From positions 1-46,038 of the forward strand of contig MFCA01000026.1 in the NCBI GenBank assembly GCA_001775095.1: a stretch of DNA of 46,038 nt. Reading direction: 5' to 3'. Position numbers and translations under genes: made by a program. The stretch is from Candidatus Curtissbacteria bacterium RIFOXYA1_FULL_41_14 (GTDB lineage: Bacteria; Patescibacteriota; Microgenomatia; Curtissbacterales; GWA2-41-24). A model generated the notes under the pieces. It did not search any database. It was not told where the DNA came from and was given only the letters and a program-made list of their open reading frames with translations. This document shows, piece after piece, positions 13,931-16,051 of the stretch; position 1 is the stretch's first letter, and every line of letters begins with the position of its first letter.

Positions 13931-14602
13931 TTGACGCTTACCAGCCTAAAGTCTAAAGCAAAAGTTTATACAATCATCATCCTTCTCATAATATATGGAG
14001 CGGGAGCTTACTTTGTGGGAAGGTCTTCTGCTTTTGGCCAGATTCTCAAGATCAGAAAAGAAGTACCCCAAAGAGCGATTGTAGCCCCCATTGAATCTCC
14101 CATGCCGTATGCGGATACGCAGTCAGGTTCAGTTATATCAGCTCATGTTAAGTTATGCTCTAATACGGTCTACGGCTTTGAGATAGCCTATCCGAATAAT
14201 TGGTTCACCACATTTCTCACAGACGAACAAAAGTGTAATTTCTTCGCACCTTACTCGTTTGTTATACCTAAAGATACAAACGAAAATTTTGTGCCAATCA
14301 AAATCGAAATCATGAATGTTGACCAGTGGCCGGGTATGGTCAAATTTTACGAGAACCCAAATGACTTTCGAAACATAATTAGCGTGCAAAATATAAATAT
14401 TGGTGAAAAAATTATTCATAAAGTAAAAGCGAGCACAACAGATGAAGGTCTGTTACCCAGAGATTACGATATACTGAATTACTTAGTGTTTGATTCTAAA
14501 ACACCTATCATAATTTCGTATCAGCAACTTTCAGAGGAAGATGATTTCGCTTCCTTCGAAAAGGCAATTGAGGAAATTGTTAATAGTTTGAGGTTTTTTT
14601 AA
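13931..14602 (+). CDS. Membrane-anchored extracytoplasmic protein, unknown function
   Basis: A 223-aa protein. It has one N-terminal membrane helix (residues about 12-30) and a periplasm-like C-terminal part, which begins with a VYGFEIAYPNNW segment similar to the start of PsbP-like domains seen in many CPR proteins. This resemblance is loose. Two Cys (VKLCSNT and EQKCNFF) could form a disulfide. The start is TTG at 13931, after a GGGGAAA purine stretch. Its 3' end faces a candidate minus-strand small RNA. Confidence 0.6.
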   Translation: MTLTSLKSKAKVYTIIILLIIYGAGAYFVGRSSAFGQILKIRKEVPQRAIVAPIESPMPYADTQSGSVISAHVKLCSNTVYGFEIAYPNNWFTTFLTDEQKCNFFAPYSFVIPKDTNENFVPIKIEIMNVDQWPGMVKFYENPNDFRNIISVQNINIGEKIIHKVKASTTDEGLLPRDYDILNYLVFDSKTPIIISYQQLSEEDDFASFEKAIEEIVNSLRFF

Positions 14603-14603
14603 C

Positions 14604-14691
14604 AAAAAAGACAGGTGCCGTACGGTACCTGTAAAAGAAAAGGCCTCTCTTGCGAGAAGCCCTTTCAAGTTGCCTATCTTGCGATAAGCAA
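14604..14691 (-). ncRNA. Candidate small RNA with two GCAA-tetraloop hairpins
   Basis: Read on the minus strand, about 88 nt fold into three stems. Stem 1 is TTGCTTATC-GCAA-GATAGGCAA (14691-14670), 9 bp. Stem 2 is AAAGGGCTTCTC paired around a GCAA loop (14665-14638), about 12 bp. Stem 3 is ACAGGTACCG / CGGCACCTGT (14632-14611), followed by CTTTTTT, an intrinsic terminator. In stems 1 and 2 the non-Watson-Crick pairs are G-U on this strand but would be A-C on the other, supporting a minus-strand RNA. The promoter at 14697-14725 is near consensus. No open frame explains it. Similarity to a known RNA family is unknown. Confidence 0.65.
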
Positions 14692-14696
14692 AAGTA

Positions 14697-14725
14697 TTTA
14701 TACATCGGGAAAAAAATCTTGTCAA
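14697..14725 (-). promoter_or_regulatory. Promoter of the candidate small RNA
   Basis: On the minus strand a perfect TTGACA (14725-14720), a 17-bp spacer and TATAAA (14702-14697) are seen. The predicted start is about 14690, at the base of the first hairpin. Its -35 box overlaps, on the opposite strand, that of the xseA promoter. Confidence 0.75.
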
Positions 14726-14747
14726 CCCCCCAAAATATAGCTAAAAT
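14719..14747 (+). promoter_or_regulatory. Promoter of the xseA operon
   Basis: TTGTCA (14719-14724), a 17-bp spacer and TAAAAT (14742-14747) precede the ATG at 14780, giving a leader of about 25 nt. A second -10-like GATACT at 14765-14770 would give a leaderless start. The -35 shares five bases with the divergent small-RNA promoter. Confidence 0.6.
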
Positions 14748-14779: not shown

Positions 14780-16051
14780 ATGAAAAACATTGCCGGTAAA
14801 AATGTTTATACGGTTTCAGAAGTCAATTCTCTGGCACGTCAGACTCTAGAAGGATTGACTTTTTGGGTAGAGGGCGAGATTTCTTCTTTTAGGGGTTTAA
14901 ATAACCATTATCGATATCTCTATTTTGATTTAAAAGACCCAGGGACAGGATACAAACTGCCGTGTATTTTAGAGCCTGAAATTTTTACGTCTCTAGGATT
15001 TCAATTGGCAGACGGAGGAAAGATCCTTGCCCTGGGAAACCTAACTTTATGGGAAAAAGAAGCAAAATTTCAAATGTACCTTTTCAAAATAGAAGATTTC
15101 GGAGAAGGATATTTGCTTGCTCAACTAGAGGAACTCAAAAGGAAGCTGGAAAGTAAGGGTTATTTCAACCTGGAAATAAAAAAAAGCCTGCCAGCATACC
15201 CTACCAATATAGCTGTAATTTCCTCAAAAGTTTCTGACGCATGGCAGGATTTCAAAAAACATACCATCGATAAGTTTGGTGTTATTAATGTGACCTTTTT
15301 TGATGTGATGGTCCAAGGCCAGAAGTGTGTAACTTTACTTTGTCAGGCAATAAAAAAAGCCGACCCTTTGAATTTTGACGTGATAGTTTTGATTCGCGGA
15401 GGCGGATCGATTGAGGATTTGGCAGCGTATAACGACGAACAAGTTGCCGAGACGATTTATCGGGCAAAAACCCCGATCTTAGTAGGTGTGGGCCATGAAA
15501 AGGACGTGACTATTGCCCAGTTGGTTGCCGATATAGCCGCCTCGACACCCACAGACGCGGCTAAAATCATAAGCTCCGATTTTTTACTTTTAGATGAAAA
15601 ATTATCCTCAATTGCCCAAAAAATGGCTCTTGCAGTTACAAATCGCCTAACTGGCAGTGCCCAACAACTAGACCTGCTTTTTCAAAAACTTTCTTATTTT
15701 GTAAAGAGGCATCGTGAGATACCAAAAGCGCTAGTTCACATACGACAGTCGCTAAGTCATTTGCAAAAAACAATAATTTTAGGAAAGAAACAAAGGCTTC
15801 TTGTCTTGCAATCGTCTTTGAAAAGTAAATGGGTCTTTATTCTTCAAGAGAATTCAAATAGCCTGAATAACCTTAGAACAAGACTGGATTTGCTTTCTCC
15901 CCAAAACATTCTAAAACGTGGATACAGTATTGCCTATTCACCCGCAGGCAAAATTATCAAAGACGCAGACCTAATTGCTATTGGCTCAAAACTTAAAGTA
16001 AAATTGGCGAGAGGGGAACTGTCGTCAAAGGTTTTAGGAAAAAAGATATAA
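14780..16051 (+). CDS. xseA: Exodeoxyribonuclease VII large subunit
   Basis: A 423-aa protein of normal length. The N-terminal OB fold runs over residues 1-105 (VYTVSEVNSLARQTLE, FWVEGEISSFR). The catalytic domain includes NIAVISSKVSDAWQDF, then VIVLIRGGGSIEDLAAYNDE and TPILVGVGHEKDVTIAQLVAD, which are the conserved blocks of XseA. A long coiled coil (about 270-370) binds the small subunit. ExoVII degrades single-stranded DNA in repair. The ATG of xseB overlaps the xseA stop by one base. Confidence 0.96.
   Translation: MKNIAGKNVYTVSEVNSLARQTLEGLTFWVEGEISSFRGLNNHYRYLYFDLKDPGTGYKLPCILEPEIFTSLGFQLADGGKILALGNLTLWEKEAKFQMYLFKIEDFGEGYLLAQLEELKRKLESKGYFNLEIKKSLPAYPTNIAVISSKVSDAWQDFKKHTIDKFGVINVTFFDVMVQGQKCVTLLCQAIKKADPLNFDVIVLIRGGGSIEDLAAYNDEQVAETIYRAKTPILVGVGHEKDVTIAQLVADIAASTPTDAAKIISSDFLLLDEKLSSIAQKMALAVTNRLTGSAQQLDLLFQKLSYFVKRHREIPKALVHIRQSLSHLQKTIILGKKQRLLVLQSSLKSKWVFILQENSNSLNNLRTRLDLLSPQNILKRGYSIAYSPAGKIIKDADLIAIGSKLKVKLARGELSSKVLGKKI

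Follow-up and report, generated by a model that had tools for sequence, protein, structure and literature searches.

A conserved two-hairpin small RNA with GNRA loops, predicted upstream of xseA in Curtissbacteria, and its apparent relatives in Microgenomatia

Yfr1 and CsrB are among the described bacterial small RNAs closest to the element reported here. Yfr1 is a cyanobacterial small RNA of 54-69 nt with two stem-loops, of which the 3′ one is a terminator; its unpaired centre of 16-20 nt carries an invariant ACUCCUCACAC and its loops are unconserved (PMC2190773). CsrB is known to sequester CsrA (PMC5027483). For the group studied here, the literature offered no such precedent, since our search retrieved no work on small RNAs of Microgenomatia and none of direct relevance for Patescibacteria, with Curtissbacteria and Saccharibacteria included. 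Hfq was not detected in any of the 15 genomes of the order examined (control genomes were positive), which puts in question how, and whether, RNA regulation operates there.

The stretch of DNA analysed (the window; 46,038 nucleotides from a Candidatus Curtissbacteria genome) holds, on the minus strand from 14725 to 14604, a near-consensus promoter followed by two hairpins with GCAA loops and by U-runs, in an interval otherwise free of genes. The genome is placed in Microgenomatia, and the closest named relative of its XseA is from a Candidatus Curtissbacteria MAG. The features of the locus are as follows.

14720-14725, minus strand: -35 box TTGACA, an exact match, 100% identical in all aligned syntenic copies.
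14697-14702, minus strand: -10 box TATAAA behind a spacer of 17 nt; identity between copies is 93% in the box, 55% in the spacer and 29% in the discriminator.
14633-14691, minus strand: predicted small RNA of about 58 nt, a conserved block in 12 of the 15 genomes of the order, with covariation and a match to covariance model R1 at E about 1e-20.
14670-14691, minus strand: hairpin 1, with which the predicted transcript begins, 9 bp in the fold, GCAA loop at 14682-14679.
14637-14666, minus strand: hairpin 2, 12-13 bp in the fold, GCAA loop at 14653-14650, a probable intrinsic terminator.
14633-14636, minus strand: U-run UUUU closing the conserved block, with identity of about 41% directly downstream.
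14604-14632, minus strand: third stem (ACAGGTACCGTACGGCACCTGT) and T-run, a second, genome-specific terminator outside the conserved RNA.
14780-16051, plus strand: xseA, exonuclease VII large subunit (PF02601, E 2.4e-70), the divergent neighbour.
13931-14602, plus strand: gene for an uncharacterised protein of 223 aa, the convergent neighbour, found next to the RNA in every syntenic copy.

The original prediction had read from the sequence a TTGACA, a 17-bp spacer and a TATAAA on the minus strand, and these are present at 14725-14720 and 14702-14697. The arrangement TTGACA-N15..19-TATAAA occurs only once in the window, with 0.07 occurrences expected from shuffles, and the promoter matches 10-11 of 12 positions in every syntenic copy. 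No plausible gene was found to overlap 14604-14725 among the open reading frames of the window, as had also been claimed, and the convergent 223-aa protein had no match in Pfam. On the plus strand, a promoter-like site directed toward xseA (TTGTCA/TAAAAT, 14719-14747) overlaps the -35 box of the small RNA. A conserved upstream GTATA motif corresponds to TGCTATACT on the plus strand in relatives, an extended -10 element for the divergent gene.

Folding of the minus strand, with both hairpins and the third stem, gave -41.8 kcal/mol (z = -8.3), and none of 200 shuffled sequences was equally stable. The two GCAA hairpins, originally estimated at 9 and about 12 bp, were recovered with 9 and 12-13 bp, joined by a linker of 3-4 nt within AACUUGAAA. 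The plus strand folded less stably (-34.0, z = -5.5), because the G-U pairs turn into C-A mismatches, and this agrees with the earlier strand argument, based on G-U pairs that exist on the minus strand only. The conserved 59-nt part alone reached -31.7, a value equalled by 2 of 2000 random 59-mers from the window. GCAA or GAAA loops were found in 15 of the 29 tetraloop terminators of the fetched loci (the RNA's own copies included); GNRA loops being this common in terminators here, the GCAA of hairpin 2 is by itself unremarkable, and the informative feature is the GNRA loop on hairpins that are not terminators.

The order of the window was represented by 15 genomes (single representatives), and a DNA search located the RNA in 12 of them, with 83-96% DNA identity. 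Its apparent absence from the other three is no evidence of loss, as two assemblies (G005 and G006) lack both neighbours and the contig of the third (G001; C43, L064) stops just past the convergent gene. It follows that every genome of the order holding the assembled locus has the RNA. Every syntenic copy faces the same uncharacterised gene in convergent orientation and is divergent from xseA, which adjoins the RNA, or is separated from it by a UPF0047/YjbQ gene, wherever the contig extends that far; the description of the RNA as divergent from xseA therefore holds in the window, but in three relatives the YjbQ/UPF0047-family gene sits between the two. Between these genomes, identity is 36-70% for XseA and about 37-58% for the convergent protein. 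The RNA, with a mean column identity of 93% in its alignment, is better conserved than the neighbouring proteins. In the syntenic copies, mean pairwise identity was 43% upstream of the promoter, 100% in the -35 box, 55% in the spacer, 93% in the -10 box and 29% in the discriminator, rose to 93% in hairpin 1, 90% in the linker and 99% in hairpin 2, and fell to 41% downstream, a profile typical of a promoter plus an RNA gene. R1 gave a single match in the window genome and no second copy was detected there; a DNA search of the same genome returned only weak matches sharing just short stretches, and an exact match to the RNA core was not found in viral contigs.

The 5′ end is predicted at 14691-14689, at hairpin 1, in line with the proposed start about 14690, and the 3′ end within the U-run. 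Wherever a copy occupies the ancestral locus, 5-7 nt separate the -10 box from hairpin 1; in the second copy of one genome (G010, described below), an extra hairpin intervenes. Since nothing beyond the U-run of hairpin 2 is conserved, the length is put at about 58 nt and hairpin 2 is assigned as the terminator; judged from sequence, the RNA begins at hairpin 1 and ends at the hairpin 2 terminator. This revises the original estimate of about 88 nt, which had included the third stem. That stem (14632-14611, with a U-run behind it) does exist in this genome, but is missing from the other aligned copies. An 88-nt three-stem RNA was accordingly ruled out as the conserved product, and a read-through form of about 88 nt is possible in this genome. 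An attenuator or riboswitch leader was likewise rejected, as no gene lies downstream on the same strand, where syntenic copies have the antisense of the convergent gene.

Two genomes of the order carry an additional copy. In G010, two copies lie about 200 nt apart (L019:1502-1563 and L019:1680-1760), the second of which (G010b) is preceded by a separate promoter, differs in hairpin 1 and, through one additional hairpin, carries three GCAA hairpins. In G007, the second copy (G007b; L020/L042) is diverged and lies at another locus, behind a gene for a repeat-rich membrane protein of 390 aa, with both stems compensated.

In the structural alignment (A2), 97% of cells pair. Five pairs show double changes, where shuffles give 0.3 and shifted partners 0-4; all of them come from the two diverged copies, G010b and G007b, and hence represent few independent events. 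Four pairs of hairpin 1 changed on both sides. G010b retains GCAA in hairpin 1 while its loop-closing pair changed from C-G to A-U, G007b has a compensated C-G to U-A change in hairpin 2, and in G011 the hairpin 2 loop changed from GCAA to GAAA, still a GNRA loop. The covariance-model search suggested with the original prediction thus returned homologues with compensatory changes. A short coding gene would have to use the frame ...LSQDRQLERASRKRGLFF..., which is uninterrupted in the window and in L022. This frame is broken by a CAA to TAA stop in G013 and G014, by a one-base insertion in the first G010 copy (G010a) and by a deletion in G007b, with pairing kept, and no ATG or GTG start lies within the 59-nt RNA; the breaks in frame while pairing persists refute a coding gene, whose probability we consider negligible.

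A further alternative is that the promoter and the terminators merely serve the neighbouring genes, as an insulator or a source of supercoiling, the RNA itself being a functionless by-product. The position between a convergent gene and the divergent xseA, the conserved promoter and the terminator nature of hairpin 2 would all fit such a role. We nevertheless judge it very improbable, because hairpin 1, which is not a terminator, still shows 93% conservation and compensatory changes, because other loci hold paralogues, and because the related units of other families (see below) have other neighbours.

No described family accounted for the RNA. Searches with Rfam 15 at gathering scores detected only tRNAs in the window and 14 related loci, in keeping with the earlier assignment to an unknown family, and a relaxed threshold yielded no family either. 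The best score below threshold, 29.1 bits against a gathering score of 80.4, was that of BTnc231 (RF04180), a Bacteroides small RNA whose weak covariance match covers mainly the terminator half; the 5′ half does not fit. We therefore class the RNA as a new family within a general kind of small RNA that is already known. It resembles Yfr1 in length, in its 5′ stem-loop and 3′ terminator hairpin, in strong conservation within one large group and in a conserved genomic position, but differs in that its linker has only 3-4 nt, the ACUCCUCACAC motif is absent, and the loops are the fixed part.

The Yfr1-like plan invites an alternative in which the RNA would act in trans as an antisense regulator and pair with mRNAs through the linker (AACUUGAAA) or through a hairpin that has opened, while hairpin 1 guards the 5′ end and hairpin 2 terminates. 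Size and the order of parts (5′ hairpin, linker, terminator, conserved genomic position) fit Yfr1 (PMC2190773), and the sequence is near-invariant across the order. KH proteins of the KhpA/KhpB type, present in 15 of 15 genomes of the order, are tied to small RNAs elsewhere, KhpB binding small RNAs and tRNAs in enterococci (PMC10117718). On the other hand, the linker is short and less conserved than hairpin 2 (90% vs 99%), related RNAs often have linkers of 0-4 nt, and Hfq is absent. On balance we regard an antisense mode of action as unlikely, although it deserves to be kept in view.

To place the RNA in a broader context, we considered the Microgenomatia, of which a partial sample of genomes was covered. 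R1, built from the order, also matched well in G109 (E 1.8e-7), which belongs to another family of the class. In that family short promoter-hairpin-terminator units with GNRA loops were found, several with a shared gene on one side and tRNA-His on the other. A second covariance model (R2) was built from five RNAs of that other family and none from the window's order. R2 matched 70 of 374 genomes of the class, a count that is no proof of absence elsewhere, given that in searches over 40 genomes the filters were tighter and no more than 14 candidates were scored in each genome. At E ≤ 0.001, the sole R2 match in each of the 12 genomes of the order was the RNA described here; the E-values of both models are rough, and the weakest R2 matches (E near 0.001) are to be read as candidates.

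Features that R2 does not contain confirm its matches as real units. A promoter with at least 10 of 12 positions lay upstream in 15 of the 17 R2 loci outside the training set, against 2.1% of random control stretches. Of 22 hairpins outside the modelled part, 20 had a GNRA loop, compared with 7 of the 733 control hairpins (1%), which came largely from coding DNA; the loci had been chosen in part for a GNRA loop in the modelled hairpins, and the extra hairpins had not been so chosen. In a negative control consisting of weak phylum-wide R1 matches, a promoter was present in 1 of 16, and loops were of the GNRA type in 2 of 31. These phylum-wide matches were rejected as relatives, being mostly plain GCAA-loop terminators without a promoter or upstream GNRA hairpins.

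The related units have two to four hairpins and, in the predicted folds of simpler members, linkers that are often of 0-4 nt. The window RNA fits the composition by which the class is defined here, namely a promoter and two to four GNRA hairpins that start near +1, the last being the terminator. It thus appears, from these sequence features, to belong to a wider, undescribed class of GNRA-hairpin small RNAs in Microgenomatia. Common ancestry of the class members is likely, with convergence of a simple architecture as the alternative; shared ancestry is the simplest reading because the finds of R1 and R2 are reciprocal. In the other family, five loci (L077 and L080-L083) illustrate such RNAs: several lie behind a shared gene whose product ends in ...KELWKLLPFS, several are placed just before tRNA-His, and some hold two GNRA hairpins inside an outer ACCTGT/ACAGGT stem.

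A near-consensus promoter, a single copy in most genomes and high conservation across genera would also suit a structural RNA of a stable ribonucleoprotein or ribosome-associated complex, that is, a housekeeping component and not a regulator. Hairpin number and stem sequence differ between families, however, and the 70 of 374 class genomes matched by R2 would be unusual for an RNA of this kind, even with the limited sensitivity of the filters. We therefore hold a housekeeping role to be improbable.

Almost no unpaired sequence, a variable number of hairpins, compensated drift of the stems and a fixed loop type together favour an RNA recognised by its structure (a ligand, decoy or scaffold) over a seed-pairing small RNA. 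In the explanation that we prefer, a strong sigma-70-type promoter would place the transcription start at the base of hairpin 1, and hairpin 2 would terminate the RNA of about 58 nt. The GNRA-capped hairpins would be docking sites for an RNA-binding protein or an RNA receptor, and the short RNA would work as a structured ligand or decoy, by analogy with titrating RNAs of the CsrB type, and not by single-stranded seed pairing. Taken as a whole, this account of a stand-alone RNA gene, a member of the GNRA-hairpin class, whose hairpins dock a partner has in our estimation an even chance of being correct.

Like CsrB, CsrC and RsmZ, though by analogy only, these RNAs string together a variable number of hairpins that share one loop motif, and may be multivalent, with two to three GCAA hairpins per RNA in the order and two to four mostly GNRA hairpins in relatives. 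They differ in that the loops of CsrB, CsrC and RsmZ present GGA, which is absent throughout the 59-nt RNA; the window RNA has GNRA loops and is much shorter. We tentatively extend the docking explanation to the class, in which modular arrays of GNRA hairpins might titrate a putative GNRA-hairpin-binding protein, a CsrB-like logic with another motif in bacteria lacking Hfq; this extension seems to us possible, but somewhat doubtful. KH domains usually bind single strands, for which reason KhpA/KhpB are one candidate partner and no more. Two counterpoints apply to docking. One is that GNRA loops and 5′ hairpins can simply make an RNA more stable, so that loop type need not mean binding. The other is that hairpin 2 is near-invariant, beyond what structure by itself would demand, and this could point to sequence-specific pairing. 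The RNA may also exemplify a multivalent design of the CsrB kind with GNRA loops as its basis; its conservation beyond that of the neighbouring proteins, together with relatives of variable hairpin number, makes it a concrete bait for an RNA-binding partner, and the covariance model is ready for use in annotation.

Three further loci were noted. One contig (G254, C8, 4024 bases; L036/L063) ends inside or at the RNA and carries the locus of the order in a genome placed in another family, and is probably mis-binned. In the phylum-wide sample, L048 (G439) was the sole weak match with a promoter (11 of 12 positions) and a GAAA hairpin before a GCAA terminator, and it may be a relative from outside the class. 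Finally, G011 holds a degenerate relative (L043:1470-1545) with a promoter, a similar terminator and a different 5′ fold, located directly upstream of dsbB, where use as a leader or attenuator is possible.
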